A stretch of 64,000 nucleotides of DNA from Mytilus galloprovincialis (lineage: Eukaryota; Mollusca; Bivalvia; Mytilida; Mytilidae): NCBI RefSeq assembly GCF_965363235.1, contig NC_134839.1, positions 80,129,410 to 80,193,409 on the forward strand, in the 5' to 3' direction. This document shows, in pieces, positions 6,297 through 61,337 of the stretch. The position numbers were made by a program, and so were the translations under genes. The number at the start of each line of letters is the position of its first letter. The stretch's first letter is position 1. The notes below the pieces were generated by a model. It ran no database searches and was not told the DNA's origin. It saw only the letters and a program-made list of their open reading frames with translations.

Positions 6297-9200
6297 TTTT
6301 CCTTTTTTAACTAAATCTTGAACTTCATCAACTTGTATATCACAAATCTGGTAAAACATTTGCCTACATGGAGGTAACCTATCTGGTCTGTATATATGTA
6401 CTGGTTCCTGAAAGATACAATGGTGTAATAAGTACATATCATAGATTTTTAATATATATTAATTAAGTAAATGAAGCTGTAGAAAAGTAGATATTTCAAA
6501 TATTACTTATCTGTATAAATAAGATAATGTAGTATGAGTGCCAATGAGACAACTGTCCATCCAAGTCACCGTAGTATGAGTGCCAATGAGATAACTGTCC
6601 ATCCAAGTCACCGTAGTATGAGTGCCAATGAGACAACTGTCCATCCAAGTCACCATAGTATGAGTGCCAATGAGACAACTGTCCATCCAAGTCACCATAG
6701 TATGAGTGCCAATGAGACAACTGTCCATCCAAGTCACCGTAGTATGAGTGCCAATGAGATAACTGTCCATCCAAGTCACCGTAGTATGAGTACCAATAAG
6801 ATAACTTTCCATCCAAGTCACCATAGTATGAGTGCCAATGAGACAACTGTCCATCCAAGTCACCATAGTATGAGTGCCAATGAGACAACTGTCCATCCAA
6901 GTCACCGTAGTATGAGTGCCAATGAGATAACTGTCCATCCAAGTCACCATAGTATGAGTGCCAATGAGACAACTGTCCATCCAAGTCACCATAGTATGAG
7001 TGCTAATGAGACAACTGTCCATCCAAGTCACCGTAGTATGAGTGCCAATGAGACAACTGTCCATCCAAGTCACCGTAGTAGGAGTGCCAATGAGACAACT
7101 GTCCATCCAAGTCACTGGTCTGGTACACATGTCTGCTTGCTTATCATTGTTCTTTTAAAAGTCTCACTGAGGCAAACAAATCTCTTTGTATCATTGTTAA
7201 TTGGGATTCCTAATCTACCCAGTTTCCTAATATTCATAGCTGCTCACTTCTAAATGACTAATATTATTGCATTTATAAGACTAGAAGCTAGCAGGAAAAG
7301 GCTAATATCATATTTCATTGTATTTAGACAATTGAGCATCTAAACATGTGTAAATGGTGTCTACTATCTCATTCAATTTGACTTAATTGCATCAATATTT
7401 GAAGTTTAGTCAAATTGTTAATAGAAAAAACATACTGCCTTTAATAGTCAGCACAATATGGTTAATTTTTTGTTGTCACTGATTGTCAATGTTCAAAGAC
7501 AAAAAGCAACTTCTCAGCATTAATTCCCTATTTTAACTCTCATTAACAAATTATGCTCATTGAACTTTCTTTGAATTGACAGGGATACAGTTTGTCCTAC
7601 CTACATGTGATTTCCCATTGCTAAAAAATAGTAAAATTAAAACATAGTTGATAATTGGAAAATATTCTATTCTGCATATTCTGTATCTGCCTGTCCCTAG
7701 CCAGGAGCCTGTAATTCAGTTGTTGTTTGTTTCTGTGTATCATATTTGATTTGCATTCATTATTTTGTACATAAATTAGGCGGTTAATTTTCTCTTTGGA
7801 ATTGTTTTACATTTGTCATTTCAGGGTCTTTTATAGCTTACTATGTGTAATGGGTTTTGCTCATTGTTGAAGGCTATACAGTGACCTATAGTTGTTTTTA
7901 AAAAAAATGTTATTTATTTTTCTGTTAGTTAGAAAACTAATATTTACTGATTCTGTTGTTGCTCCTGGTTTTTGTTTACTACCACTTGGTTTGTTTATAT
8001 CAAGACTCTCCAAATCTATTTTAGGAACATTCGGTGCGTTACGTTTCAGAGCTGGGAATGCCAAGGTATTTTCTGATCTCTTACATTTTATTGCCACCAT
8101 ATCTCCACAGGAAGCTACAATGGAAAATCAAAGGTTCTTATATACAAAGTCTATTTTGTTATTCCATTGATTAAATCTAAAATTCCTAGTTATATAATTG
8201 TATTTCAAGCTATAAAACTGACCAGTGCAGGAAAACTTCACTCAAATATTAAGCATTATATATAATAAAGTGAATGAAGAGTGGTCACCTTAAGGAAGTG
8301 AACTTTAACTTGAAACAGTAACATAAAAGCATGAAATTTAAAGTTACTTGAATGGGGACCAACTCATTAAAGTACACATGAAAATTTAAATGAATCTAAA
8401 TGATCCTAACTGATGAAAATTTAATCTTAACTTAAATCAAATTCAGTAAAGAATTAGGTTTTGCATGGATACTGCTATTATCACAAAGAGGCATCTGTAT
8501 TTAGAGGTATCTTATCCTACAACTTGTATTATCTTAGTATGACATGACTTCCAAACAATAACTCTATCAGTCAAAATATATTTATTTTCCACTGACCATT
8601 TGGGAGTCAAACTTTCTATTTTCTGTAACAATAACTGGCATCAAACATGCCTGTTAGGACTATCAATCAAATTTCTTTACTGAAACATGACAGTATCTTT
8701 ATAGGTAAATGACTTTCTTTTAAAGGGTTATAAATGTACCATTAACATAAAGTTTGGTGGTATCTGGTTCTTTACATTATTGATCTAAAACAACAGAATT
8801 TTTAAAGAAAATAAGTCAGTTTTAAAATTCTTTATAGTTTGTTCTATATTTCAGCTTTTATCATTTTGCTGATTTCTTTCATTTCAAATTTTCTTCATTG
8901 CATTATTTTGAGAATAACAATAAAGCAACACACTGATTTTGACAATAAGCCTTAATTTCAGAATGACAAACATTGTAATTATGACGAGATATAAGATAAA
9001 CATATCTATTAACTTATTTTGCAGCCATGTTCGGTCAGAATGGGGACGTTAAATCTGATGCCTCGTGTAAAGAGAGTGCCACACTCTGTGCACGTTAAGA
9101 ACCCTTGCAACAACTCCTTGAGGGGTCCATAGGTGATCTGTTGCAAGTCAAAATTTCTGTCCCTATCCAATATACCCTCATTTTCCAGTGGCATTCCAAA

Positions 9201-12200: not shown

Positions 12201-15200
12201 ATAATGAGAAAATAACCCTTTATATACTATAAATAAAAGGAGAAGTGGCATATAAGTCTATGAGATAGGAAAGCAATAACACAATTAAATTGGATTTCAG
12301 TTATCTCAAAATCATAAGGAATAAGGCAACAGAAAATATTTGCCTAACATGCCTGGGGTGTATAACATTTTAATGAATTGTTATTTAACTCAGTATGATC
12401 AGTGTAAAAACTAGACGTATCTCCAAAACTCACTGGTTCCAATGAGATGTGTTGGTCTGCTATGGTCTGGATTAACATAGCCAGGTTTGTGAGATATTTC
12501 TCCTCTATACAGGTAATCCTTGTCAGGAAGATCAAATCGTGAAAATATCACTGGTGGCAAGAATAAAGCTGCATCTCGATTGAAGAACTCATTTCTATCT
12601 ACATTTTCTTTGAGGTGTAACTGGTGAGATATATTCTCATATCCTGACTCTGCTCTATTGAAAGGAAGATACTGGAAATCTGCCATGGCTGCAAATATAA
12701 ATTTACAAGTTACTGGAAATCTGCCATGGCTGCAAATATAAATTTACAAGTTACTTCATTTACAAATATTGGGCAGGGTATTTTACTAATTTTTTCAATG
12801 AAAGTGGACATATATTTGTTTTATTGACTACATGATATGCTCTTGAAGGTAGTCTATTTACTATTGTCCCAAAAAACCTTCAACAACATGGAGAGAAGAA
12901 TTAACCTAGGCTTGAGAAAAATGTTTTATACAGCACTCGTTCTATTTGAGAAGTCAAAATGTGTTGACCATATATTTCTATGTCATATACAGTCACTGAC
13001 CTGTTATCATTTTTCTTCATGAATATTTAAATAGAAATTGCCGAAAATTATAATTAATTATTCATACGACCTATTCAACCTGTTCTTGTTTCCAATGTAT
13101 ACAACAACTCAAACTTATTTCTTTTTTCAATTTTTAGAGAAAAAAAAAACATATTTCACTTGTTAATATTTTTAGTTTGCAAACTATAAATCATTATGTT
13201 TTATGCTTATTGTTGATATTTTAGTTCATTCTCAAACAAATTTGTTCACCATCGATTGCGGGTTTCAACAGGTAATGTACATTTCATTGTGTTGTATATT
13301 TCTCTGCCTGCATGATATGAGGCCTTTTTATAAAAGGGGGAAGTTATCCAATATCTAAATGAAATAATAACACTCACACATTATACAACAATTGAAATTT
13401 TTTTTATAGATTGCAGTATAAAGACAATAATAGTGCATTGACTTGACATATCAACGATATAAGGATTCAGCCAGAAACGGGGAAACAGCTCTGCAGAGCC
13501 TCGCATTTCCCTGTTTCTAAGCATCATCCTTATCTCGTTGATATGTCAAGTCAATGCACTATTATTGTCTATATATATCACAACAATAAATACAAATAGA
13601 AGGAGATGTTGTATGATTTCCAACAAGAATATTATATATCTATAAAGACCAAAAGACAAACATTTGACCAATTCAAGTTTATTGAACTGACTGATACACA
13701 CTATCATTAATTAGCAAAACTCATACAGTAAACATGTATTTATATAATTAGCTATTAACTAGAACACAGTAAGATACATATTATTTACCATTAAATTTGT
13801 ATGTTGTATCAATAATCCCAAGTACTTCAACTTGATATTCATATTTGGATTTATCTCCCTTTTTTGGTCTTCTTTGGACCTTCATCAATAAATTTGTTGT
13901 AGAACATCTTTCACCAAAAGCTGGTTTACAGAAAGGATCAGCAGGCCTCCAGTTTACAGATAATCTTTTGTTTGCTTCTGAATATACCTGAGTTTATAAA
14001 GTAATAATTACATTACATGTATCTTTTATTATAATACGTTAGAATGATTGGCATACACAAATCCTGTGAATAGTGTCATTCTGAAATCAACCTTCATTTT
14101 AAAATGAAATGTAATATTTATGAAGACAAGAGCTTTCAAAATAAGAAATGATAAGGTGCACAGGTAAATAAATGAAGAAAAAAATATAGAAATCCGGTTT
14201 TCATCATGTTCATAATCCTTGCACAAAAAATGTAATTATAAGTATTGAATGCTTCTTTTAGTAATTTTATAGGGTTGTAAAAGAGTTGACCATGGGTGCA
14301 TTTTTAGAATGAAGCGCTTCCTTGCTCCATACACAATGTAACTTATTTCTGTCATCGCTTATTTTACATCCTAATCAGCTAAAAAATTTACAAGAAGAAG
14401 CGTTCAATTCTTAAACATGTTAAATATATAAATAAGTTACAAATACTACTACAAGGCTGTACATTTGTCTGATGGTGTTATATAAATAAGTTACAAATAA
14501 TACTACAAGGCTGTACATTTGTCTGATGGTGTTATATAAATAAGTAATAATAATACTACAAGGCTGTACATTTGTCTGATGGTGTTATATAAATAAGTTA
14601 CAATAATACTACAAGGCTGTACATTTGTCTGATGGTGTTATATAAATAAGTTACAATAATACTACAAGGCTGTACATTTGTCTGATGGTGTTTTGAGTTA
14701 TTTCAATGTTGATATGTTGTTGTACAAATGTATAAAGTTTTACTGGTTAGATGATATCAAATGGCAAAATATGTTTGAATTGTCTGCAAATTCTACTAGA
14801 GGTCATCCTTGGAAATTAAATAAAAAAAAGAGGTGTAATTCAACTCAACGTCTTCGTATTTTTTCACAAAGGCTCATTGATCAATGGAATAGTCTGTCAA
14901 CAGAAACAGTTAGTGCAAAATCTGTCAAAATTTTAAAGAGGAACACTGGAATGGATAGAAATGGTTATTTAAACTTTTGATGTGAAACAGTAATTGCAAC
15001 AATTTGAATATCATCATTTACCAGAATGGGAAAATAAGTTATCCTTTGGGTCTCACTAATTAGCGACAAGAAGCGTCAAGAAGCGCCAAGAAGCGACAAG
15101 AAGAGTAATTTTAGTGACCAGAAGACTTTTACCTGACAAGAAAACATCTTTTCTTTTTAATTAAGATTACTCATTCCAAAGAAATATTAAACAAGATTGC

Positions 15201-17904: not shown

Positions 17905-20900
17905 ATGAAGAAGAACTCAAATGAAAAGTAACCAATTATTTATTGCAGTCAGTGGTACATGTCATATCGCCGTATCGGCACATATTTACGGACATTTTGC
18001 CATTAAGTGGTCAAATTCGTCTCGAACAGGTCAGGAATAACCACCAATTGGTGGATTATACCTCAATTGACGTATAATCCACCAATTGAGTTATATTGGT
18101 ATAGACCAATTGATGTATAATACAATTTTTTTGTAATTTAAATGCTAGTGTGAGATAGGAGCATAATTTTGCAACCTGCAACCTATTTCATGTATTTCAT
18201 GACCCTTATTGAGTCCTCCGAAAGTTTCAGTTTTGTCTAAGCCTGCTGCATCTCTTGAGAATGCATGTGACTTCAAATATAATTATTGATTAAATGCAAT
18301 ATGTTATGTTACAATACTAAACTAGGAATGTTTGACAAGTTTTCATACCATAATATGGTTTTAAGAAAACTGCTCCGTTTTGGTGGAATAATTTGTTTTG
18401 AAAAACAAAATTATACACCAATTGATCTATACCATTATATGTCAATTGGTGGATTATACGTTAATTGAGGTATAATCCACCAATTGGTGGTTATTTCTGA
18501 CCTGTCGAAATGATATATTTTTCACCTTTTTGCATTTTATATTGTTCTGTAAATCGTTAAAAACTAATATTGTTCTGTAAATTGTTAAAAACTATCACAT
18601 GTTATTGAACTGTGAACTTAAAATATTTAAGATAACAACATGAACAATCTGACCAAGGATTTGTATAGTAAATACAAATCCTTGGCTTGATCTGACATAC
18701 AAAAATTGTCGCATCATACATGACATATTTTTTTATAACATCCATATTTCAAAGGTTTGGATTGCACTCACGTACATTTTTATATGTTTTCCGGTTACTT
18801 TATTTGGAACAACAAAAACACTAGAACATGAAAAATGTCAAACATATTCAAAGTCGCTTTTAAAGACATATGAACAAACTTAATCAAAGTTCAACATTCT
18901 TATTTAATGTTAAAAAATATGCATTGTTAGAAATGGTGCACCGTTAGAAATGTTGTCTGAAGGGTGACATTAAGTACAGCTATGTCATCTGCCTGTCAGA
19001 TACTGGTTCTTCAAGTCACATGACTGTCTTGTGATTTTTGGTCATACTTATTACATGTATTACAAACCAGCAAAACTATTTATTCAATATTGATTGTACA
19101 TGTACTATTGACAATTCTTTTTAGACAACTGTAAGCTTAAGACATAAAGGGGAAAACAGTCTCAACTCTTTTTTTATTTAATCCCAAATGTTTGAAAACT
19201 GCATTTTAAATTAGAAAAAAAAATGTCTTTTGTAGAAACGAATCCCAATGTTACAGTTTGAAATTAAAGTATTAATATTTTTTTGTTTATGATTCAAGCG
19301 GTCACCAAAACATGAATAAAACCCATCAGTGAAAATTGTTATTAATATCAAAATATATCACATGAGGATATAATCAATATTGAATTGCTATTACACTTAT
19401 AACTAATTTTTTACCTCCAGGCTCTAGCGAGGCATATAATTTAGTAAAATTATAGTTCTCAGATTAATTACTTTGTATTTCCCCTTTTCCTTGTTATTTC
19501 AATTTTTTTATAAGATTTAATCATTCTTTTGAAGTTTATACTAATGTATTTCCTTGTCAAATTCTGAAAACTGGAAAATTTATCACAAATATTGATATCA
19601 CTGTTTTCACCCATGATATCAAAATGGAAAATCAATGATCAGATTATGCAAGATATCACCTGTTGAAAATAGTATTACACACACTTCTGTAGGCACATAA
19701 AATTACATGGGCAAAGCAATGGCCCGACAAATAGCCCTAGCACTATTCTTCTGGAAAGATAGCCACCCCAATATTTTTAAGAAAATGTGGTATGATTGGC
19801 AATGAGACAATTCTCCACAAGAGACCAAATGACACAGATATTAACAACTATAGGTCACCGTACAGCCTTTAACATTGAAGAAAACCCATGCCATATGTCA
19901 TAAAATTAAAACACAATTAGATATTTTAACTGATTTTAACTGAGTTCTGTTATTCATATAGTACAAAACATACAACTATTTGATGTTTTTAAGTGTATAC
20001 GTACATTTTAATTTAACTGCCATCTAATTGACATACATTCTACAATCTACCATTACAATCTACCACCCCTTTTATTCCTAAGTGCAAAATTATTTATCAT
20101 ATTTATACTGTAAATACCTAAATTATTTTATTACATCTCAAAACTTTGTTTGGGTTTTCCTATGACTTCATCAATGGATCAAAGGAAATACAATGTCCAT
20201 TATTATTTTTTTTATGCTCAACATAATGTTATGATTGATATGTTATGTCAGATGTGGTCAAACATACAAATGTATAATATCTGGATATTTGCTTTTCCAT
20301 ATATATGCATGATATATTTTCTAGGAAACAGCCTGGTCAATAAACTGCCATATTTTCATTAATGTAATTATCTGTTAAATGTTTATAATGATGTAATAAT
20401 TTTTACTTCTCTTTAAAGATATCACAAAGGAAGAGAGAAGAAGACAGGAAAGGAGGAAGAAAATAAACAATTGGAAAAGAAAAAGTTATTAGAAGCTAAG
20501 ATCAGAAAACAAGTTGCATCTGAAGAAAAAGCCTTTCGTATTGTTGAAAGACTGATAGAAAACCCAATAACAGAAGAATTTCTTAAAGATTCAGTAGGTT
20601 TTGATAATTGAATTTTTGAAATCATTTTTTTTTCTTCGATTGTGTAGATGTGAAAAGCACAAGTGTCCCACACTATTTGACATAATGATTTGAAGCATAA
20701 GGAAAAAGAACTTTGATTAGAATTGCTTTTTATGCCCCATTTATTATGCCCCATTTATGGGCATTATGTTTTTTTGGTCTGTGCATCCCTTTGTTTGTCG
20801 TACTGTCTGTTCGTCCGTCCCGCTTCAGGTTAAAGTTTTTGGTCACAGTAGTTTTTGATGAAGTTGAAGTCCAATCAACTTGAAACTTTGTACACATGTT

Positions 20901-23900
20901 CCCTGTGATATGATCATTCTAACTTTAATGCCAAATTAGAGAGTTTCCCTCATTTTCACAGTCCACTGAACATAGAAAATGATAATGCAGATGGGGCATC
21001 CATGTACTGGGGACACATTTTTGTTTCACATGTTTTATGTCTCTGTTTGCTGAGCTCTATAAATTTAACTATTTTATTTGTATGCACCTTCAGATTGTTG
21101 TGGTTTGTGACTCTGTACACACATTAAAAGAAGAAGGTAGTGGGTTCATGGAAATTATTTTTTGTTCCTTCATAACTTTACCTTCTACTGTCTCCATCTT
21201 AATATTCGAAAAAAAACGGAGGATACCAAGGGGACATTAAGTGGAAGAAAAACTGACAATGCCATAGCATGAAACACACACACAAAAAACTCCATAAAAA
21301 ACATAATAAGCTAAGGATTGAGAATGGAGAGTGCTCATTTTTTTCAATTCAATAAACCTTAGAAGTTTGGCCTTCATTTCACATATTAATATAAAAATTA
21401 ATATAAATCTCCTACTGTAGATTCATTATTACTGGTTGCATACTAATTATTATGGGTGTCGTGGGTAAAGGTGAACCAGGAATTTAAATGTTCAACAAAT
21501 AACATATTTCAATAGACTTTGTATACAGAGATTGGCAAAACCACGAAGTCAAATATCCACGAATATGCAAGTTGTCAACAATCCACGAAAATTGAAACCC
21601 ACGAAAATAAACAAATCTACAGTAAACAGAAACCACATTTGTTATTTCAGTGCCAGTTTATTGCACCTCACCATTATGAAGATATTGTTGAAGAAAGGTC
21701 CATAACAAAGACATGTGGCTATCCTGTATGTAGTAAACCACTTAATGCTGTAAGTTCTTTTCAGTAACTTATATACTGTATACTGTAAAGACAGAATCAT
21801 TTGTGAGGAGTTTGATTTTGCTTATTTATCAATTGTTATAAGTTAATCATGGAAATATTCCCTAGCACCAGAAGTTAAAAAAAATGATAAAATTCAGCGA
21901 AAATAAACCATTTTTCAGATTTTGGTCAGTGTAAAAATTGACTTGGTCATCGATCAGATATAACTGTTTTCTTCATAGAACCTTTATTGTTAGAATCAAG
22001 AGTGTGTTTATTCTTATCAGGTCAACATACATATGCAACTTCTTGTTTTAAATTGTGTTTTAGCTTTAACTCCTTTTAATTTTATTGATCTAGATGCTCA
22101 TCAAATAATGCATGTTGAATCTTCCATTCGTATGATTGATAGCAATGGCTGCTATATCTTTATCTTTTCATGTGCTTTTGTTCGATTTAAAATTGCTTTA
22201 ATTTTGTACAAACTACAAAAATTAATACTTTTGACAATATTATTTTTTTTCACACTGTATACTATTGTTTAATGTTGAATTTGATGCATGTACATTTAGC
22301 ATGTTTTTTTACCTTATTACTAAAGTGTGATTTACATATTTTATATGAACAGATATCCAAGCAGAAATACCACATCTCCACAAAAGATAACAAAGTTTAT
22401 GATATAACTGAGAGGAAGGTATGACATAGCTTTTATTAGTGAAACTTTGATCTTAAGAAAAAAGCAATGAAAAATAATCGAACAAGCCATACACATTTAT
22501 TTTAAATTGAATTTATGATATTAAGCAATGAACAAAAACTTTTGTCTATATGTGGCTTCCCTTAAGTCTCAAGGTGGCATTTACAAATGCATCAGGTCAT
22601 TATGTAACTTTTAAGCACATTTCAGTGTAGTTTGAAAGTTTTTTACGGTTACAAGTTACTAATTGTTTTAGATTAGAACTCTGATTTCAAGGTTGGATTT
22701 GACCATAATGGGGCCACCTACATGCTTTAACAGCAAAGTTTAATGAAAACATAAGAAAATGTATTAGATGATTGTGCAAAAAATTCTGTCAAACGGCATC
22801 TTCAAAAAGTTGTGTTGTAATTTGATAACCACCATTTGTTTTGTGATCAAGAGCTATTTGCCTCTTAAAATTTGTGTGTCATCTCTTTTTATCTTACAAC
22901 CTGTCTAAGGTTGCTGTTCAGATTTTATGACGAAAACATTCTTAAGTTATTTTAACTTCATACATGTAATAATGTTTGTTTTATTTGAACAGAGTTATTT
23001 TGACTTCATACATGTAATAATGTTTGTTTTATTTGAACAGAGTTATTTTGACTTCATACATGTAATAATGTTTGTTTTATTTGAACAGAGTTTCTGTAGT
23101 AACCATTGTTACAAAGCATCTAGATACCTACAGACTCAGTTATCTACAACTCCATTATGGTCAAGAGAAGAGGAGAGAGTTTGTGTTAGTCTGCTTACTA
23201 CAAACAGGTATCAGGTTTACTTTAAAATCTTCACTAATTTTATGTCTGACATTTTACTATTTCAAAAATATATTTACAACAACTATCCACCAAATATATC
23301 ATTCTAAAAACAATATTTGTTGCAGAAAATAATATTCTGATAAACATAAAAAGCCATGATCATGTATTAGATCTTTAAAGTAATGAAAGAATTTCACTGA
23401 TTCCAGTGATGAACAAACAGGCATTTTAGAAATTTGAATAGATTTGAGAAATTTGGCATTGCCTGAGATTCAATGAGAAAATATGTTTAAGTAATGTCAT
23501 ACAATTTCTGACATGTATGAGGTTATCACCAATGTACAACTATTGCGCAATAATACTTTTTTTACAGATAAAAATTATTGTTAAGCTTACATTAAATGGT
23601 TGGAACATTGCACTAACACAATAATAGCTCACCTGAATCAATGATATTAACATTTGAATATTTGATTTGTTTCAGTGGATTACCAGGTGTAGAAGTCGTT
23701 GGACCAATAGAAACTGTATGGAAAGAAGTTCATCAGTTAAATAAACTTGACCAATCAGAATCAAAGGTCAAAAATTCAGATGACAACAACAAAGAAATTA
23801 ATGATATAACCAGAAAAACAGCTGACATTAAACTTAAGGATGAAACTTTGTTGGAACAAGGTTGTGTAGAAGATTCAGATGATGAAAAAGATGAACATGT

Positions 23901-26900
23901 TTGTACAGATATAGATCAGACTAAAACAAATAATCTGTTTGAGGGGACATTTACAGAAAATAATGCAAGTGATTGTAAAACTTCAGTCGCCCAGGCAGAT
24001 AATGCAGGTTGTCCTCCTGTAGAGTCAATACCCGAGACAAAGAGTACAAAGGGAGATAATCCCTCACAAACTGAAGATAAAATGCAACAGTTGATGAAAT
24101 TATTAGACAGAAGAAAACAGTTGCTTGGTCAGTTGGCTGAAATAGAAACTGTTTCTGAACCTTCAATGGTACAAAATACAAAACCAAAAACACAAGAAAA
24201 TTTAGAGACCAAAAGTTCTAATCAGCAACAAATGCCCATTGATAAAGATGTTTCAAAAGTTCATAGAATAGATATCAATTTTCCCAAAATTGTCCATGTA
24301 GAACATGAACAGAAAAATGCTGGTATATCAGAGAGAGACATAAGTGATGGATCATCAGTTTTCAAAAATATTGTTGAAAGTGAATGTAGTAAAACCTTTG
24401 ATGTTAGCAAAGAAAAAGACACTAAGCCAAAACCAGAAAATACCAAAATGTCTAGTCATTCTGTTATTCAGTTGATATGTCAGTCTGTTAAAACATGGAT
24501 TACAACTGAAACCTTAGAATGTTTACAAAAACCAGCAGAACAGGATCAGACTAGTAAGACCTGGTCAAGAACACATTTTGATGCATTATATCAAGCTTTA
24601 TGTAAAAGAGTAGATGCGGGAGAATTTGAAATAGAAGATATTGGTACTGAATCCAATATGGATGATGATAAAGATCAAAGACTACCAATACCTGAATTTG
24701 AAAAATTGAGAGTAGAAACAAAAGATTATGCAAATAAAGTGCAGCGATACTTTGCTGGTGAATTGTTTACTGAACCTACAGAAAAGGTACTATCAGTTAA
24801 TTCATACTTCAGTTTGTTAAGATAAGATAAGATATTTTATTGGTTTAAAATAAAAAATTACAGGATTGATACCAAGATAATGGTTAATGAAACGTACAAC
24901 AGCAATAAAAATTTGTACAGTCATTCATTTATTTATTTTGACCACTCATAGTTATTTAAAATAAAATGTTAACTTTCATTTTTTAAACCTCCAGTAACTT
25001 CTCCAAGAAAAAAGACCATAATGTTTATTTTGTTTCCTTAATTCTATGCATATTTCAACAGAATACACTAGTATGCAGAAGCCTGATGAAAACTATAGTT
25101 AAGCTTTTAGATTTGATTTCTACCAAACACTTTGATAAGTTTTCAAGTAGAAAGACATATAACAAAAACATAGACTGGACATGGCAGGGTAGTTATACAT
25201 CCACACAACAAAAAAAGAACACTATCTTCTTCGTTTAATGTTTATTCACATTATAGGATTACCAAGAAAATACACCTGTATACCTGCCTACAGTGGACAC
25301 TTATGATCAGATGCAAATAAGAAGAAAAATAGTAATGGAGAGATTACAAAACGTGTAAGTTTTAAATTATCTGTTATTTTTTTTGTCAGATTTGGCACTG
25401 AGTAAAATTTGTTTCCTTTGCCACATTAGTTGCTTTTCTTAAATTCACTATATGGTATTATTTGTTACAATCTGATGGTTTGTGTCAATGTGCGTTGAAC
25501 AAAAAAATGACTTCCATTTTCTTTATTGCTTTCCATAATTGTAAAACTGGAGACAATCCAAATTTGTTATACAAATATTTCCACACTTGACATGAGACTG
25601 GTTAACACTCAAAGTAATTTCAGTTTATTAACTTGAAACAAAAAATTTCAATGAAAAAGTATGAATGCTGTTTCTCATTATATCTAAGTAATCATAATTA
25701 TATTGCCTCTTCCTGAGTATGATTTTAAACATATACAACGTATGTCAATTAGATATATATATAGCAACACATCATTAAGACACGTAATTCATATAATACA
25801 TAAAATGTTAAAAAAAAAAAACACATAAAACTTGCTGTAAACCAAAACAAAATATATGAAATGAACATATGTTTTTTTTTCCCTTAGGATACAAGATGTG
25901 TTATCTCCCTTGAAGCTCACACTACAAGACGTTTATACTGAATACAAAGACATGATTGGCACATTCAGGTTAGTAGCTGCATTTTTATTGACATTTTTAT
26001 CTTACCCTCCACTGTAAAGGACATATTTGTCTGTCTGTGTTTCCATATTCATCTGACTGTAAGTATATCTGTTATTCCTTCATCCCATGACAAGTTAGTT
26101 TTTGATTTAGGGTAACAGGTACGTAAATGGCAGATCTCACTGAGTTTCAAAATTTACCAAGTTAATTTTTATACTTTCTGAAAGCAATTTGAATATTCTT
26201 TAGATAGAAGAATCAATGAATAAGATGCATGCAAACATCGTAAAAAATATTTGATTTTTTTTACTTCTAATATCGTTTTCTGGTGATGATATAAAATCTA
26301 TAGGGAATCTATAAATTTATTTTGCTGTGTAATTTATTCAGTTGTATTCTGTAATATCTCTTAAAAACATTGAAAAATAATAATTTGATGCCCAATTTAG
26401 GCAGGTTGTCATGTCTCATCCCTATTTGGGGACATTTTGTCATCATGTGCATAGAGTCAACTGTAATATACTCAAGTAATGAATTTGGTGATTCTTTTTC
26501 AAAAAGAGTCAAAAGATACTAAATGGATATTCTTATTCACAAGTTGAAAACAAACTGACAACACCATGGCCAAAAAAAGAAAAATACCAAAAAACAAAAA
26601 ACAAAAAACAAACAACAGTACATAGAAAACTAAACAAATGTGGAACACGAACAACACCTTAAACCAGTATTTCATCATATTTAAAGGAAAAGGAGTAGTG
26701 TAAGGGCACTTCGAGCACAATTGTTCATGATAATGTGAACTTTTTCTGTCCCATTTTATAAGGGCTATTCCAGAAAAAAATGTAGGGGGGTTGGGGGGGT
26801 TGGGAGGCAGTTTTTGTCAGCACCCACCACCCAGACAATTGTAATTGAGAATTATAGTGCATTATAGTGTGAAAAGTTGCTCTGATACCCATCACCCATG

Positions 26901-28851
26901 TATTATTAATATAATGTGCCTTCCAACCCCCAACCCCCCATACATTTTTTTCTGGAATAGCCCTAACTTTATTTCACCTGATGACATATAAAGAATAAAA
27001 TTATCTTTATCTGTTCTTATTAGGTAAACATTTGTCATACTTGAATCAAGTACACTTATCGATCAAATCCTGTCTGACAGGATATAAAAAAAATAATAAA
27101 TTCTTCCAAATAATTTTAAATATCAAATCCCCATTTGTTTGAGGTTTAAAATAACCCCACTTCGCATAAATATGAACTCTAATTTGCATGCCATGACTGG
27201 CTGACAAAGTTTATCCTCTTAGAAAAGAAATGGTTGTGTGTTTTGAACTTCTGATGCTACTTTTGTTAGACTATACTAGAACATTTACACATTAATAACT
27301 TTATAAATATGATACATGTATAGAAAATAAATCTAATAATTCCAAACAAAGATTAATATTTTAATTATTATTTTGCATTAAATTGGTATATAAATCTGTA
27401 GAGACAGTTGTCATCTGTTTATATTTCAGTCTTGACAGCAAAAATATCCTTCACAAGCCAGCAGAATGGACAATTATCAATCTTATTTTACTGAGATTGT
27501 AAGTACTGCTTAAGACACTACTTGCATTGTAATGTTACCTTATTGTTTAATTTAGAGTTATCTAATGAAAGTTCTGGAAATTTTCATCCTATTAAAGCAT
27601 TTAAGTTTATTTTCATTGAGTGAATGAATAGCTAGGTTAAATGCACAAAATATAGGTCAGTGTCAAATTGTTACCAAGGTATATAGAATAACCATTTTTG
27701 TCTGTACACATGTGCTTAAATTAAAAATGACAAAAAGACAAGCAACAGTCTACAAAACATAACAGAGAAAACTAAAAAATGAGTAACATAACCCAACCAA
27801 AAACTAAAGACAGAGCAACATAACCCAACCAAAAACTAAAGACAGAGCAACATAACCCAACCAAAAACTAAAGACAGAGCAACATAACCCAACCAAAAAC
27901 TAAAGACAGAAACTATAGACGGAGCAACATAACCCAACCAAAAACTATAGACGGAGCAACATAACCCAACCAAAAACTAAAGACAGAGCAACATAACCCA
28001 ACCAAAAACTATAGACTGAGCAACATAACCCAACCAAAAACTATAGACTGAGCAACATAACCCAACCAAAAACTATAGACAGAGCAACATAACCCAACCA
28101 AAAACTAAAGACAGAGCAACATAACCCAACCAAAAACTAAAGACAGAGCAACATAACCCAACCAAAAACTATAGACTGAGCAACATAATCCAACCAAAAA
28201 CTAAAGACAGAGCAACATAACCCAACCAAAAACTAAAGACAGAGCAACATAATCCAACCAAAAACTAGACTGAGCAACATAACCCAACCAAAAACTAAAG
28301 ACTTGAGCAACATAACCCAACCTAATTCATAAAGAATCTATTTACAAAAAATAAAAAAGATGACAGACATGAAGTGATGGTAACCGCTGTCCTACAGGCT
28401 TTTGGCCAGGTGCAGGCACTGTCTTTGTATTTTAGTTAACAAGAGTGACATTGTTGTGTCCATTGGTAAATATTGTCAGTAGAATTGTTAAATTCTTTTA
28501 AGTTGTATGACTACTGTTAACAACTGATTACATTATCTTTTCATACCAGGATCTGATTTGATAGGATATTATAAACTAATACATTGGGAATTTCTTTGAT
28601 TAAACACAAAGGTCGACATGAGACTGCTGTTGATGTTTCAACAAATTATTTAGTATATATGTTCCAGCACAATATATATATATATAACTATATAATTTTT
28701 TTGTAGGCTGTCTAGGAAGAATATTAAGATAAAGAAAGCATTCCTTCAGCCATCATCTGTGACATACTTTAAGATTTTACTTGGCAGACTAGGAACTAAC
28801 TTACAGCAGATTGATATGTACATTGATGACTTATTATCTATCACTAATTAA
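17905..28851 (+). CDS. RPAP2: RNA polymerase II-associated protein 2 (Rtr1/RPAP2 family), ten coding exons, complete
   Basis: RPAP2 binds RNA polymerase II, takes part in its assembly and nuclear import, and belongs to the Rtr1 family linked to removal of Ser5 phosphate from the CTD. Exons: 17905-17927, 20419-20593, 21651-21749, 22353-22418, 23089-23207, 23676-24786, 25257-25354, 25888-25968, 27430-27498, 28707-28851. Phases are continuous; the product is 661 residues (human about 612). Residues 20-66 are a lysine/glutamate-rich helix ending ENPITEEFLKDS. The Rtr1 zinc-binding cysteines are visible: CGYPVC (C88, C93) in exon 3 and SFCSNHC (C124, C128) in exon 5, with KVYDITERK between. Exon 6 (1.1 kb) codes for a low-complexity acidic linker. 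The C-terminal part (VLSPLKLTLQDVY, ILHKPAEWTIINL) matches the vertebrate tail. The weakest part is exon 1 (MKKNSNEK), chosen because its ATG, donor and phase fit and nothing better was seen upstream. A 48-bp triplication precedes exon 5. A likely poly(A) region follows in 28852-29360 but the site is not defined. Confidence 0.93.
18026..18505. mobile_element. MITE with about 95-bp terminal inverted repeats, in RPAP2 intron 1
   Basis: The left end, ACAGGTCAGGAATAACCACC, is mirrored by a right end closing GGTGGTTATTTCTGACCTGT. The arms pair for about 95 bases with few differences and contain the internal palindrome CCACCAATTGGTGG. Total length is about 480 bp with no ORF of note. The small ORF at 18286-18468 is fortuitous. 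Confidence 0.85.
18653..18685. repeat. Perfect 14-bp-arm hairpin
   Basis: CCAAGGATTTGTAT and ATACAAATCCTTGG flank a five-base loop. The arm is shared with the hairpin at 3401-3433. Confidence 0.8.
19787..19905. repeat. Dispersed mytilid repeat (GGCAATGAGACAA type)
   Basis: GTATGATTGGCAATGAGACA, CCACAAGAGACCAAATGACA, then TATAGGTCACCGTACAGCC. The inverse appears at 41695-41810 (TCTCATTGGCAATCATACCA). I recall this as one of the commonest repeats in Mytilus transcripts and introns. Confidence 0.7.
20738..21036. repeat. Dispersed repeat (GCCCCATTTATGGGCAT type), plus orientation
   Basis: Opens with ATGCCCCATTTATGGGCATT and holds CGTCCCGCTTCAGGTTAAAG, TTGAAGTCCAATCAACTTGA and TTTTCACAGTCCACTGAACA. 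Inverted copies lie at 43740-44200 and 47965-48240. It lies in RPAP2 intron 2. Confidence 0.8.
22945..23088 (+). repeat. Three 48-bp tandem copies, each carrying an RPAP2 intron-4 3' splice site
   Basis: Copies at 22945-22992, 22993-23040 and 23041-23088 differ at one base and each ends in TTTTATTTGAACAG followed by AG. The third copy abuts the exon at 23089 (SFCSNHC). Since 48 is divisible by three and the unit is open in this frame, use of the upstream acceptors would insert SYFDFIHVIMFVLFEQ once or twice without breaking the RPAP2 frame. Confidence 0.97.
26761..26964. mobile_element. Small MITE with AGGGCTATTCCAG ends
   Basis: AGGGCTATTCCAGAAAAAAA at the left is matched by TTTTTTTCTGGAATAGCCCT at the right. 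The arms continue through a G-rich/C-rich block (GGGGGGTTGGGG versus CCCCAACCCCCC). About 204 bp, in RPAP2 intron 8. No ORF. Confidence 0.8.
27782..28322. repeat. 32-bp minisatellite, about 17 copies, in the last RPAP2 intron
   Basis: The unit is made of GAGCAACATAACCCAACCAA followed by AAACTAAAGACA. Variants AGACGG, AGACTG and ATAGAC are interleaved along the array, which suggests growth by unequal exchange. It lies between exons ending 27498 and starting 28707. Confidence 0.95.
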
Positions 28852-29801: not shown

Positions 29802-29946
29802 AGCTGGTACCTAAATAGTATGTGATCTAGTTCAGTGATAGCTGGTACCTAAATAGTATGTGATCTAGTTCAGTGATAGCTGGTACCTAAATAGTATGTG
29901 ATCTAGTTCAGTGATAGCTGGTACCTAAATAGTATGTGATCTAGTT
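29802..29946. repeat. 38-bp minisatellite, left part (about four copies)
   Basis: Unit AGCTGGTACCTAAATAGTAT then GTGATCTAGTTCAGTGAT. The array stops in mid-unit after CTAGTT, where a 2.3-kb element begins, and resumes at 32238. Confidence 0.95.
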
Positions 29947-32237
29947 AGCTCACCTGGCCCAAAGGGCCAAGTGAGCTTTTCCCATCACTTGGCGTCCGTC
30001 GTCCGTCGTCGTTAACTTTTACAAAAATCTTCTCCTCTGAAACTACTGGGCCAAATTAAACCAAACTTGGCCACAATCATCATTGGGGTATCTAGTTTAA
30101 AAAATGTGTGGTGTGACCCGGCCAACCAACTAAGACGGCCACCATGGCTAAAAATAGAACATAGGGGTAAAATGCAGTTTTTGGCTTATAACTCAAAAAC
30201 CAAAGCATTTAGAGCAAATCTGACATGGGGTAAAATTGTTTATCAGGTCAAGATCTATCTGCCCTCAAATTTTTAGACGAATCCGACAACCTGTTGTTGG
30301 GTTGCTGCCCCTGAATTGGTAATTTTAGGGAATTTTTGCTGTTATTGTTTATTATCTTGAATATTATTATAGATAGAGATAAACTGTAAACAGCAATAAT
30401 GTTCAGCAAAGTAAGATTTACAAATAAGTCAACATGACCAAAATGGTCAGTTGACCCCTTTAGGAGTTATTGCCCTTTATAGTCAATTTTTAACCATTTT
30501 TCATAAAGATTAGTAATCTTTAACAAAAATCTTTTCCTCTGAAACTACTGGGCCAAATTAATCCAAACTTAGCCACAATCATCTTTGGGGTATCTAGTTT
30601 AAAAAATGTGTGGCGTGACCCGGCCAACCAACCAAGATGGCCGCCATGGCTAAAAATAGAACATAGGGGTAAAATGCAGTTTTTGGCTTATAACTCTGAA
30701 ACCAAAGCATTTAGAGCAAATCTGACATGGGGGTAAAATTGTTTATCAGGTCAAGATCTATCTGCCCTCAAATTTTCAGATGAATCCGACAACCCGTTGT
30801 TGGCTTGCTGCCCCTGAATTGGCAATTTTAAGGAAATTATACTGTTTTTGGGCTATTATCTTGAATATTATTATAGATAGAGATAAACTGTAAACAGCAA
30901 TAATGTTCAGCAAAGTAAGATTTACAAATAAGTCGACATGACTGAAATGGTCAGTTGACCCCTTTAGGAGTTATTGCCCTTTATAGTCAATTTTTAACCA
31001 TTTTTCGTAAATCTTAGTAATCTATTACAAAAATCTTCTCCTCTGAAACTACTGGGCCAAATGAATCCAAACTTGGCCACAATCATCATTGGGGTATCTA
31101 GTTTAAAAAATGTGTGGTGTGACCCGGCCAACCAACCAAGATGGCTGCCATGGCTAAAAATAGAACATAATGGGTGAAATGTAGATTTTGGCTTATATTT
31201 CTGAAACCAAAGCATTTAGAGCAAATCTGACATGGGGGTAAAATTGTTCATCAAGTGACAATCTATATGCCCTGAAACTTTCAAATGAATCGGACAACCG
31301 GTTGTTGGGTTGCTACCCCGAAATAAGTCATTTAAAGGAAATTTTGCAGATTTTGGTTATTATCTTGAATATTATTATAGAAAGAGATAAACTTTAAACA
31401 GCAATAATGTTCAGCAAAGTAAGATCTACAAATAAGTCAACATGACCAAAATTATCAGTTGACCCCTTAAGGAGTTATTGCCCTTTATAGTCAATTTTGA
31501 CCAATTTTTCGTAAATTTTTGTAATCTTTTACAAAAATCTTCTCCTCTGAAACTACTGGGCCAAATTAAACCAAACTTGGCCACAATCATCATTGGGGTA
31601 TATTGTTAAAAAAATGTGTGGCGTGACCCCGCCAACCAACCAAGATGGGTGCCATGGCTAAAAATAGAACATAGGGGTAAAATGCAGTTTTTGGCTTATA
31701 ACTCAAAAACCAAAGCATTTAGAGCAAATCTGACATAGGGGTAAAATTGTTTATCAGGTCAAGATCTCTCTGCCCTGAAATTTTCAGATGAATCGGACAA
31801 CCAGTTGTTGGGTTGCTGCCCCTGAATCGGTAATTTTAAGGAAATTTTGCTGTTTTTGGTTATTATCTTGAATATTATTATAGATAGAGATAAACTGTAA
31901 ACAGCAATAATGTTCAGCAAAATAAGATCTACAAATAAGTCAACACGACCAAAATTGTCAATTGACCCCTTAAGGAGTTATTGCTCTTTATGGTCAATTG
32001 TTAACAATTTTCATAAATTTTTGTTAATTTTTGTAAATTTTTAGGAAATATTTTCCACTGTAATTACTGGGCCAAGTTCATTACAGATAGAGATAATTGT
32101 AGCAACAAGAATATTCAGTAAAGAAAGATCTACAAACACATCACCATCACCAAAACTCAATTTTGTCATGAATTTATCTGTGTTTATTGTTAATATGCAC
32201 ATAGACCAAGGTGAGCGACACAGGCTCTTGAGAGCCT
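29947..32237. mobile_element. Composite interspersed element inserted in the 38-bp minisatellite
   Basis: It starts AGCTCACCTGGCCCAAAGGG with a short hairpin (GGCCCAAAGGGCC), then GGCGTCCGTCGTCCGTCGTC. Four diverged tandem units of about 504 bp follow, each with TCTCCTCTGAAACTACTGGG and CAAGATGGCCGCCATGGC. It ends GACCAAGGTGAGCGACACAG, GCTCTTGAGAGCC. GCTCACCT near the start and AGGTGAGC near the end are inverted. CTAGTT occurs at both junctions. No transposase ORF; the small ORFs inside are chance. A second copy lies at 56303-58111. Confidence 0.85.
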
Positions 32238-32556
32238 CTAGTTCAGTGATAGCTGGTACCTAAATAGTATGTGATCTAGTTCAGTGATAGCTGGTACCTA
32301 AATAGTATGTGATCTAGTTCAGTGATAGCTGGTACCTAAATAGTATGTGATCTAGTTCAGTGATAGCTGGTACCTAAATAGTATGTTATCTAGTTCAGTG
32401 ATAGCTGGTACCTAAATAGTATGTGATCTAGTTCAGTGATAGCTGGCACCTAAATAGTATGTGATTTAGTTCAGTGATAGCTGGCACCTAAATAGTATGT
32501 GATCTAGTTCAGTGATAGCTGGTACCTAAATAGTATGTGATCTAGTTCAGTGATAA
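32238..32556. repeat. 38-bp minisatellite, right part (about eight copies)
   Basis: Resumes with CTAGTTCAGTGATAGCTGGT directly after the inserted element. Two units carry GGCACC instead of GGTACC. Together with 29802-29946 it made one array of about twelve units before the insertion. Confidence 0.95.
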
Positions 32557-34660: not shown

Positions 34661-36374
34661 TTTTATACGGCCGCAAAAATTGAAAATTTTGTGGTTGTAT
34701 ATAGGTATCATGTTGGCGTCGTCGTCATCGTCGTCCGAATACTTTTGGTTTTCGCACTATAACTTTAGTTTAAGTTAATAGAAATGTATGAAATTTAAAC
34801 ACAAGGTTTATGACCATAAAAGGAAGGTTGGGATTGATTTTGGAAGTTTTGGTCCCAACAGTTTAGGAATTAGGGGCCAAAAAGGGCCCAAATAAGCATT
34901 TTCTAGGTTTTCGCACTATAACTTTAGTTTAAGTAAATAGAAATCAATGATATTTTGACACAAGTTTTATGACCACAAAAGGAAGGTTGGGATTGATTTT
35001 GGGTGTTTCGGGTCAAACAGTTTAGGAATTGGGGGCCAAAAAAGGGCCCAAATAAGCATTATTCTTGGTTTTTGCATAATAACTTTAGTATAAGTAAATA
35101 GAAATCATTGAAATTTGAACACAAGGTTTATGACCACAAAAGGAAGGTTGGGATTGATTTTGGGAGTTGAGATTCCTACAGTTTAGGAATTAGGGGCAGA
35201 AAAGGGGCCCAAATAAGCATTTTTCTTGGTTTTCGCACCATAACTTAACATAAGTAAATAGAAATCTATGAAATTTAAACACAAGGTTTATGACCATAAA
35301 AGGAAGTCATTCAGTATTCAGCAATAGCAAGAAATCTTCAATTGCACAGTATTGTGCAATAGCAAGAAATTTTCAATTGCACAGTATTGCGCAATAGCAA
35401 GAAATCTTCAATTGCACAGTATTGTGCAATAGCAAATATTTTCAATTGCACAGTATTGCGCAATAGCAAGAAATATCTAATTGCACAATATTGTGCAATA
35501 GCAAGAAATTTTCAATTGGAGTTACCTTTTTTGATCAGAATAGTAGTTGAATCAACTTAAATCATTGTTTTATACAATATACAATGTATATTCACTTTTA
35601 CTACCAACTGATAAATTAAAACAATCTTTACCATTCAGTGATAACAAGCACTTTATTTTACATTTTAATATTTTATGATGTATCTAAATGAGTAGTTATT
35701 GTTGCAAACTCCATTAGAAATTTGAATTGAGATCAGTTTTGGAAAAAGGGAAAGGGGGATGTGAAAAAAAATGGGGGTGGGGGGTTAAATTTTTCTCATT
35801 TCAAATTTCATAGATAGAAAGAAAATTTCTTCAAACATTTTTTTGAGAGGATTAATATTCAACCGCATAGTGAATTGATCAAAGGCAAAAAAAATATTTT
35901 AAGTTCATTAGACCACATTCATTCTGTGTCAGAAACCTATGCTGTGTCAACTATTTAATCACAATCCAAATTTAGAGCAGAATCCAGCTTGAATGTTGTG
36001 TCCATACTTGCCCCAACCGTTCAGGGTTCAACCTCTGCAATCGTATAAAGCTGCGCCCTGCGGAGCATCTGGTTGATTATGGGGCCCAGTTTTCAAGTTT
36101 TCAGATTTCATAAATAAAAAGTAAATTTCTTCAAACATTTTTTTGAGAGGATTAATATTCAACAGCATAGTGAATTCCTCAAAGGCAAAAAAAACTTTTA
36201 AGTTCATTTGACCACATTCATTCTGTGTCAGAAACCTATGCTGTGTCAACTATTTAATCACAATCCAAATTTAGAGCTGAATCCAGCTTGAATGTTGTGT
36301 CCATACTTGCCCCAACCGTTCAGGGTTCAACCTCTGTGGTCGTATAAAGCTGCGCTCTGCGGAGCATCTGGTTT
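34661..36374. mobile_element. Composite repeat 'cgtcgtc' family, copy 1
   Basis: It opens TTTTATACGGCCGCAAAAAT with a small hairpin, then GGCGTCGTCGTCATCGTCG. A block of about 160-bp tandem units follows (TTTTCGCACTATAACTTTAG, ACACAAGGTTTATGACCA), then a palindromic array at about 35308-35520. The tail is unique (TCATTCTGTGTCAGAAACCT) and ends GGTCGTATAAAGCTGCGC, GGAGCATCTGG. The first and last 12 bases are roughly inverted (TATACGGCCGCA, TGTGGTCGTATA). In this copy the last 290 bp are duplicated (junction near 36075). The second tandem block of copies 2 and 3 is missing. No ORF of note. Confidence 0.85.
35308..35520. repeat. Tandem array of a self-complementary 37-bp unit
   Basis: Units read TTGCACAGTATTGTGCAATA followed by GCAAGAAATTTTCAA. 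The core TTGCACAGTATTGTGCAA is itself a hairpin, so the array can fold into a row of cruciforms. The same array recurs in the other copies at about 60547-60789 and 62860-63104. Confidence 0.85.
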
Positions 36375-59468: not shown

Positions 59469-61337
59469 TTTTTATACGACCGCAAAAATTGAAAATTTTT
59501 TGGTCGTATATTGGTATGACGTTGGCGTCGTCGTCGTCGTCGTCGTCCGAATACTTTTAGTTTTCGCACTCTAACTTTAGTAAAAGTGAATAGAAATCTA
59601 TGAAATTTAAACACAAGGTTTATGACCACAAAAGGAAGGTTTGGATTGATTTTGGGAGTTTTGGTTCCAACAGTTTAGGAATTAGGGGCCAAAAAAGGGC
59701 CCAAATAAGCATTATTCTTGGTTTTCGCACAATAACTTTAGTATAAGTAAATAGAAATCAATGAAATTTAAACACAAGGTTTATGACCACAAAAGGAAGG
59801 TTGAGATTGATTTTGGGAGTTGAGGTCCCAACAGTTTAGGAATTAGGGGCCAAAAAGGGGCCCAAATAAGCATTATTCTTGGTTTTCGCACCATAACTTT
59901 AGTATAAGTAAATAGAAATCTATGAAATTTAAACACAAGGTTTATGACCATAAAAAGAAGGTTGGCTTTGATTTTGGGAGTTTTGGTCCCAACAGTTTAG
60001 GAATAAGGGGTCCAAAGGGTCCAAAATTGAACTTTGTTTAATTTCATCAAAAATTGAATAATTGGGGTTCTTTGATATGCCGAATCTAACTGTATGTAGA
60101 TTCTTAATTTTTGGTCCCGTTTTCAAATTGGTCTACATTAAGGTCCAAAGGGTCCAAAATTAAGCTTTGATTTCAACAAAAATTGAATCCTTGGGGTTCT
60201 TTGATATGCTGAATCTAAAAATGTACTTAGATTTTTGATTATTGAGTTTTCAAGTTGGTCCAAATCGGGGTCCAAAATTAAACTTTGTTTGATTTCATCA
60301 AAAATTGAATAATTGGGGTTCTTTGATATGCCAAATCTAACTGTGTATGTAGATTCTTAAGTTTTGGTCCCGTTTTCAAATTGGTCTACATTAAAGTCCA
60401 AAGGGTCCAAAATTAAACTAAGTTTGATTTTAACAAAAATTGAATTCTTGGGCTTTTTTGATATGCTGAATCTAAACATGTACTTAGATTTTTGATTATA
60501 GGCCCAGTTTTCAAGTTGGTTCAAATCAGGATCCAAAATTATTATATAAAGTATTGTGCAATTACAAGTAATTTTCAATTGCACAGTATTCAGCAATAGC
60601 AAGAAATCTTCAATTGCACAGTATTGTGCAATAGCAAGAAATTTTCAATTGCCACTATTGCGCAATAGCAAGAAATCTTCAATTGCACAGTATTGTGCAA
60701 TAGCAAATATTTTCAATTGCACAGTATTGGGCAATATCATGAAATATCTAATTGCACAATATTGTGCAATAGCAAGAAATTTTCAATTGGAGTTATCTTT
60801 CTTTGTCCAGAAGAGTAGTTGAATCAACTTAAATCATTGTTTTATACAATATACAATGTATATTCACTTTTACTACCAACCGATAAATTAAAACAATCTT
60901 TACCATTCAGTGATAACAAGCACTTTATTTTACATTTTAATATTTTATGATGTGTTTAAATGAGTAGTTATTGTTGCAAACTCCATTAGAAATTTGAATT
61001 GAGATCAGTTTTAGAAAAAGGGAAAGGGGGGATGTGAAGAAAAAAAATGGGGGGGGGGGGGGGGAAATTTTTCTTATTTCAGATTTCATAAATAAAAAGA
61101 AAATTTCTTCAAACATTTTTTCAACAGCATAGTGAATTGCTCAAAGGCAAAAAAAAATATTTTAAGTTCATTAGACCACATTCATTCTGTGTCAGAAACC
61201 TATGCTGTGTCAACTATTTAATCACAATCCAAATTTAGATCTGAATCCAGCTTGAATGTTGTGTCCATACTTGCCCCAACCGTTCAGGTTTCAACCTCTG
61301 CGGTCGTATGAAGCTGCGCCCTGCGGAGCATCTGGTT
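59469..61337. mobile_element. Composite repeat 'cgtcgtc' family, copy 2 (nested in the hAT element)
   Basis: Starts TTTTTATACGACCGCAAAAA, a hairpin closing TTTTGGTCGTATA, then GTCGTCGTCGTCGTCGTC. Blocks: about 160-bp tandem units (59560-60000); about 130-bp tandem units with GGGTTCTTTGATATGC (60000-60540); the palindromic 37-bp array (60547-60789); and the unique tail ending GCGGTCGTATGAAGCTGCGC, GGAGCATCTGG. The start and end share inverted TATACGACCGCA. Confidence 0.88.

Follow-up and report, generated by a model that had tools for sequence, protein, structure and literature searches.

Tandem triplication of a 3' splice site in the RPAP2 gene of Mytilus galloprovincialis, and duplicated splice edges at other genes of the same genome

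Copied or closely spaced splice sites have been described in several settings. In one known natural case, a tandem duplication across an intron-exon boundary doubled the 3' splice site together with its pyrimidine tract and a putative branch site; exon sequence was part of the copy, and the new intron that resulted took its donor from the upstream exon. Tandem alternative splice sites form a second class, in which several close sites share one partner site; according to the available part of a catalogue of such sites, which is expression-based, the minor sites are weaker on average (PMC8055015). A third comparison is a human-cell library of designed, duplicated tandem sites, where, in the portion of the study drawn on here, neither of two equally strong synthetic 3' splice sites is preferred because of its order and the addition of an optimal branch point generally leaves the choice between tandem acceptors unaffected (PMC6783452).

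In this study, we describe a 48-bp tandem array at an intron-exon boundary of the mussel RPAP2 gene. Like the known boundary duplication, it multiplies a putative branch site along with the pyrimidine tract and 3' splice site, but its unit is intronic except for a 4-bp microhomology, lacks a good donor and is present in three copies. As in the tandem catalogue, several close sites share one partner site, whereas those of RPAP2 are copied from a single sequence and recur every 48 nt; as in the designed library, equal acceptors compete, but in a native gene and as three sites. We consider it probable that this splice-site array is young and neutral, that the acceptor with exon start at 23089 is standard, that the upstream acceptors leak without regulation, and that the resulting insert probably hinders Pol II binding. 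A search of open-access works for Mytilus together with RPAP2 found no paper, and we make no claim that such arrays are unpublished.

The RPAP2 array and its origin

The window, the 64,000-nucleotide stretch of DNA analysed here, comes from an assembly of 1.38 Gb in 331 contigs, in which C1-C14, ranging from 133 to 73 Mb, have the size of chromosomes and C15 measures 0.27 Mb. Eight RPAP2 exons were placed on the plus strand (20419-20593, 21651-21749, 22353-22418, 23089-23207, 23676-24786, 25257-25354, 25888-25968 and 27430-27498), and further exons may exist. Joined, they score 94.8 bits against PF04181 (cut-off 33). A profile search of the genome reported PF04181 matches at one place, the RPAP2 gene of the window, and thus no RPAP2 retrocopy from which the junction used might be read. 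As a member of the RPAP2/Rtr1 family (PF04181; PDB 7f4g and others) the host gene is ordinary, and its CGYPVC and CSNHC align with both cysteine pairs of RPAP2 in the PDB.

The array occupies the end of the intron that extends from 22419 to 23088 when measured up to the exon-proximal acceptor (plus strand; donor AAG/GTATGA). The exon 5' of it, 22353..22418 (ISKQKYHISTKDNKVYDITERK), ends with KVYDITERK in phase 0, and the fourth placed exon, 23089..23207, which the array adjoins, starts with SFCSNHCYKASRYLQ and contains the second cysteine pair. The PDB RPAP2 chain, which we take to be human, aligns without gaps to the 5' exon and on through the junction KVYDITERK-SFCSNFC, which bears out the claim of the initial annotation that an insert would fall just before the second cysteine pair. 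The donor that it had put at 22418 needs a small correction: 22418 is the last exon base, and the GT occupies 22419-22420.

Three nearly identical 48-bp copies, each ending in an acceptor, had been reported at this boundary, and two approaches agree on them: TRF calls an array at 22945-23092 (period 48, 3.1 copies, 99% matches), and direct reading of 22945-23088 gives three head-to-tail 48-mers followed by the exonic AGTT. Such an array is far beyond chance. All copies lie on the plus strand. Copy 1 (22945..22992; AG 22991-22992) stays intronic with any of the three acceptors, while copies 2 (22993..23040; AG 23039-23040) and 3 (23041..23088; AG 23087-23088) would each encode SYFDFIHVIMFVLFEQ if retained, the three acceptors setting exon starts at 22993, 23041 and 23089. 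The locus thus has at least two acceptor signals behind one donor, the arrangement of alternative 3' splice sites as far as sequence signals go, and it fits a tandem genomic duplication that abuts an exon edge and carries a splice signal. A cryptic AG 5' of the array (22920..22921, plus strand) would, if used, run into a TGA at 22928-22930. A DNA search of the 1.38-Gb assembly with the 48-bp unit gave at least one match, the RPAP2 array itself, and reported no other place; a scan for bacterial promoters and terminators, of a kind not relevant to this genome, returned nothing. Separately, a perfect 13-nt inverted repeat joins the intron (22699-22711) to the exon (23152-23164), and its pairing would loop out the three acceptors.

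The copies differ at 1 in 100 compared positions, with A at 22954 in copy 1 and G at 23002 and 23050. This single difference suggests that the array is young. It also bears on whether the genome truly has one copy and the assembly is in error, an explanation that we regard as extremely unlikely: an artefact would have to include a base difference between copies, 144 bp would be short for long reads, if such were used, and several other genes carry arrays of different units, albeit in this one assembly.

At both edges of the array, the flanks differ outside the four bases AGTT (left copy 22945..22948; right copy 23089..23092, the first exon bases; plus strand). When 200,000 breakpoints with a spacing of 48 were drawn at random in the window, 3.0% had microhomology of at least 4 bp, and the array edges point to microhomology-mediated tandem duplication. 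A recent duplication primed by the 4-bp repeat, probably in two steps, would have tripled the last 48 intron bases, comprising the branch-site region, pyrimidine tract and AG; the order of these events is one that we infer. The outcome would be a single donor followed by three branch-site-to-AG cassettes of the same local sequence.

Every unit also contains CAT/GTAATA, and a 75-nt intron from copy 2 to copy 3 would be possible. GTAATA could accordingly serve as the donor of a nascent 21-nt microexon, but its estimated U1 pairing is -1.5 kcal/mol, compared with -4.8 to -7.7 for eight RPAP2 donors, and we find this reading hardly credible. Intron gain by tandem duplication was likewise considered and set aside, since it calls for a usable new donor and GTAATA is predicted to pair weakly with U1.

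Duplicated splice edges in the window and genome

Two of 20 approximate exon edges in the window lie in arrays, one being that of RPAP2. A second array of the window, a 41-bp tandem duplication of 2.1 copies (12670..12755, minus strand), runs across an acceptor of GTF3C5, has a 4-bp microhomology (AGTA) and gives exon starts at 12729 and 12688. This gene was identified by a Tau95 domain in one exon, this exon matching PDB 8clk chain E (General transcription factor 3C polypeptide 5); its exons were mapped with a human sequence. As the exon before the acceptor ends in phase 1 (AAT G/GTAAAT), the exon-proximal acceptor reads AMADFQYL, where the human sequence has MSDFQYL, and the upstream acceptor gives AMADFQ and then TAA, a stop after six codons. 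If this allele works, the exon-proximal acceptor must be used enough; the allele may, however, represent a single haplotype in a heterozygous animal, which we count against our preferred reading. A 42-bp unit repeated 14 times (6529-7115), with long open frames on both strands, lies a short way upstream of the exon match of GTF3C5 at 6303-6410 (minus strand).

Further exons were hand-chosen from profile matches in the same genome, and their edges were taken from profile matches, not RNA. The kinase sample covered 53 of 139 matches, those with the match starting inside the profile and one per obvious cluster, and left out several others that would have qualified. One of its 53 acceptor edges was spanned by an array, that of CDK9 (L056; G000:C2:81416033-81416432, minus strand), where a 51-bp unit in 4.9 copies provides five acceptors, in frame and stop-free, with a block of ATPYNRYKSTFYISLFS per copy; the unit apparently consists of 44 copied bases and a 7-base filler. 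At another locus, L037, a 56-bp duplication lies 5' of the exon and does not cross the edge.

The second sample comprised 78 kinesin and myosin exons, fetched of 80 listed, from 125 kinesin and 93 myosin matches. Arrays spanned three of the 78 acceptor edges (L083, 82 bp; L104, 94 bp; L134, 97 bp) and three of the 78 donor edges (L087, 41 bp; L090, 90 bp; L108, 50 bp), the sizes being those of the repeat units; in all of these except L083 the array reaches, or comes within a base of, an end of the fetched stretch, and the extent seen is a minimum. All six spanned edges were in the 56 kinesin exons and none in the 22 myosin exons; the array at L114 lies in the intron only. Two more kinesin loci were chosen for repeats visible in the match list and are excluded from the rate: at L080 (G000:C3:107861380-107862560) the exon start lies in an array of about six copies of a 133-bp unit, not a multiple of three, with an acceptor in each, and at L081 a donor edge lies in an array of 2.8 copies of a 118-bp unit. 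With donor edges in arrays at L081, L087, L090 and L108, donors are therefore multiplied too. Across the 11 collected arrays, which include the RPAP2 finding and the two picked loci, three have units divisible by three (RPAP2, 48; CDK9, 51; L090, 90).

Comparison with background depends on how satellite-rich sequence is treated. Exon windows with any duplication numbered 7 of 78, compared with 21 of 400 windows of 500 bp drawn at random (p 0.19); the random count became 10 of 360 (p 0.019) once two satellite-rich loci had been removed, an exclusion made afterwards. Similarly, 7 of 209 surveyed edges were spanned, compared with 29 of 1500 points drawn at random (p 0.19); 26 of those 29 fell in the two satellite-rich loci, and their exclusion, again made afterwards, left 3 of 1350 (p 6e-5). 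Within the 78 kinesin/myosin stretches, arrays covered the intron points next to the exon in 2 and 4 cases, the middle of the exon in 1, the acceptor in 3 and the donor in 3. Intron points are therefore spanned about as often as edges, with no sign of splice-site targeting, and we did not retain the idea that duplications are targeted to splice sites.

It is conceivable, and we propose it tentatively, that tandem duplications repeatedly multiply acceptors and donors at perhaps a few percent of exon edges, are commoner near exons, and form a large, often high-identity reservoir. The same tentative reading would have this reservoir probably polymorphic, with out-of-frame arrays kept silent by exon-proximal choice and in-frame ones, such as RPAP2 and CDK9, leaking inserts. 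If arrays are as common as this small survey suggests, tandem duplication would be a steady source of splice sites in this animal, and its gene annotation would need care.

Other repeats were seen along the way. Kinase-domain matches of similar scores form dense clusters at C1:45763305-45812657 (about 1.85-kb spacing) and C3:92336287-92352768 (about 1.7-kb spacing) of assembly G000, and some of them contain stops. In the window, two arrays of one 38-bp unit (29802-29946 and 32237-32555) flank a stretch with repeated blocks, including similar ORFs near 30016, 30524, 30998 and 31463. Three composite blocks (34745-35518, 59560-60789 and 61871-63103), possibly a mobile or satellite element, share a layout in which a 160/161-bp array is followed by a 35-bp array; in two of the blocks a 135-bp array separates these.

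Choice among three locally identical acceptors

At all three RPAP2 acceptors, the final 23 intronic and first 4 exonic bases (AGTT) are identical, and any local splice score computed from them alone is equal by construction. Equal, too, are the pyrimidine count in the 18 bases before the AG and the distance to the previous AG, and past its first two bases the unit has no AG until its own terminal one. The best candidate branch sites are common to all copies (-2.0 kcal/mol at 25 and 29 nt, -1.3 at 38), and since the previous AG is 48 nt off in each case, each acceptor has its own candidates with equal estimated U2 pairing. Differences are small: the values at one A are -0.7 and -0.8, and a further candidate (-1.5) lies 57 nt before the copy 1 AG, outside the unit. 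A copy-specific branch point was set aside because the best within-unit candidates are the same in all copies. A paper on casein states, in the part consulted, the rule that the first AG after the branch point is used (PMC3048548). Each acceptor having its own candidates, we infer that the acceptor would be set by which branch site gets chosen; the branch-point result of the designed library, as given in the available portion, counts against this (PMC6783452).

Folding discriminates little between the acceptors. That of 22900-23207 is not unusual (z -0.30; the minimum-energy fold appears to pair 22914-22923 with the copy 1 AG), and structural masking was rejected on this basis and on the slight differences in accessibility. 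Values for an unpaired AG are 0.055-0.058 at 23089 and 0.012-0.025 upstream, a slight preference, whereas an 8-base accessibility measure gives 0.001-0.004 for all three and no preference. Purine-rich exon stretches can act as enhancers, and one lies at 23163-23179 on the plus strand, within the exon 23089..23207. This stretch may favour exon-proximal choice, and on one of the two measures folding may also favour it slightly.

It follows from the identity of local signals that all three acceptors might be used comparably and without regulation, in which case a large share of the RPAP2 from this allele would carry the insert and the allele would be a partial loss of function. This reading draws further support from the designed library, whose equal acceptors are reported, in the portion available, to lack an order preference (PMC6783452), and from human tissue data, where the available part of the study finds upstream minor sites favoured at similar strength (PMC8055015). 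We nevertheless judge it unlikely: only 23089 adjoins the standard exon and lies nearest to the purine-rich stretch, the slight folding preference, though absent on the 8-base measure, is for 23089, and the out-of-frame arrays in other genes suggest that the exon-proximal site can be chosen well enough.

In the reading that we prefer, the exon-proximal acceptor would yield the standard, working RPAP2 mRNA, and the upstream acceptors would be used at some unregulated level. Some leakage is expected because these same two sources, as far as they are drawn on here, show no order preference at equal strength (PMC6783452) and an upstream preference in tissues (PMC8055015); the latter could make insert forms common, which we count against our reading. 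The three identical acceptors of RPAP2 and the five near-identical ones of CDK9 provide natural competition tests in native genes: as their local strengths are equal or almost equal, the ratio of reads would show the effects of order and exon context.

Predicted consequence of the insert

Use of acceptor 23041 would add one SYFDFIHVIMFVLFEQ block (16 residues) and use of 22993 two (32 residues), in frame and with no new stop, as the frame of the upstream exon is open through the copies; the earlier statement that the unit has no stop in the RPAP2 frame thus holds. Such an insert has no counterpart in the three chains compared by alignment, two of RPAP2 and one of Rtr1. In human RPAP2, according to the part of the study available, double mutants of either cysteine pair (C100/C105, C136/C140) lost Rpb1 and Int4 binding (PMC3262128), and the numbering of the PDB alignment identifies C136/C140 as the second pair. 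By analogy, a hydrophobic insert beside these conserved cysteines is likely to be damaging and would probably hinder Pol II binding, because it would stand two residues before a pair needed for Rpb1/Int4 binding. The PF04181 score falls to 82.8 bits with one insert and to 78.8, in two stretches, with two (cut-off 33); this cost of 12-16 bits leaves the protein over the cut-off, which we count against damage.

The initial annotation had left a choice between splicing noise and a regulated switch, in which presence or absence of the insert would turn the binding of RPAP2 to Pol II off or on. An in-frame, stop-free insert before cysteines needed for that binding, as far as the mutant data of PMC3262128 are represented here, is what a switch would use, and that the unit is open and a multiple of three, as a functional insert would be, we count against our preferred reading. 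Among random 48-mers, however, 35% of 37,706 are stop-free, as are 94 of 331 acceptor-like ones; with the further factor of one third for length, about 9-12% therefore qualify by chance, and the open frame is weak evidence. Moreover, eight of the 11 collected arrays break frame; that only three have units divisible by three, the share expected by chance, makes the RPAP2 frame no sign of design or function. The three AGs have no differing local signal, the folding is unremarkable and the array looks young. We therefore regard a switch as very improbable. Noise fits better with the recurrent arrays, the three of 11 in frame and the upstream stop in GTF3C5, and nothing found supports regulation. 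Similar copied splice sites at other genes argue for recurrent mutation rather than a purpose-built switch, and the RPAP2 array would be one of the recurrent splice-edge duplications of this genome, neutral or mildly harmful.
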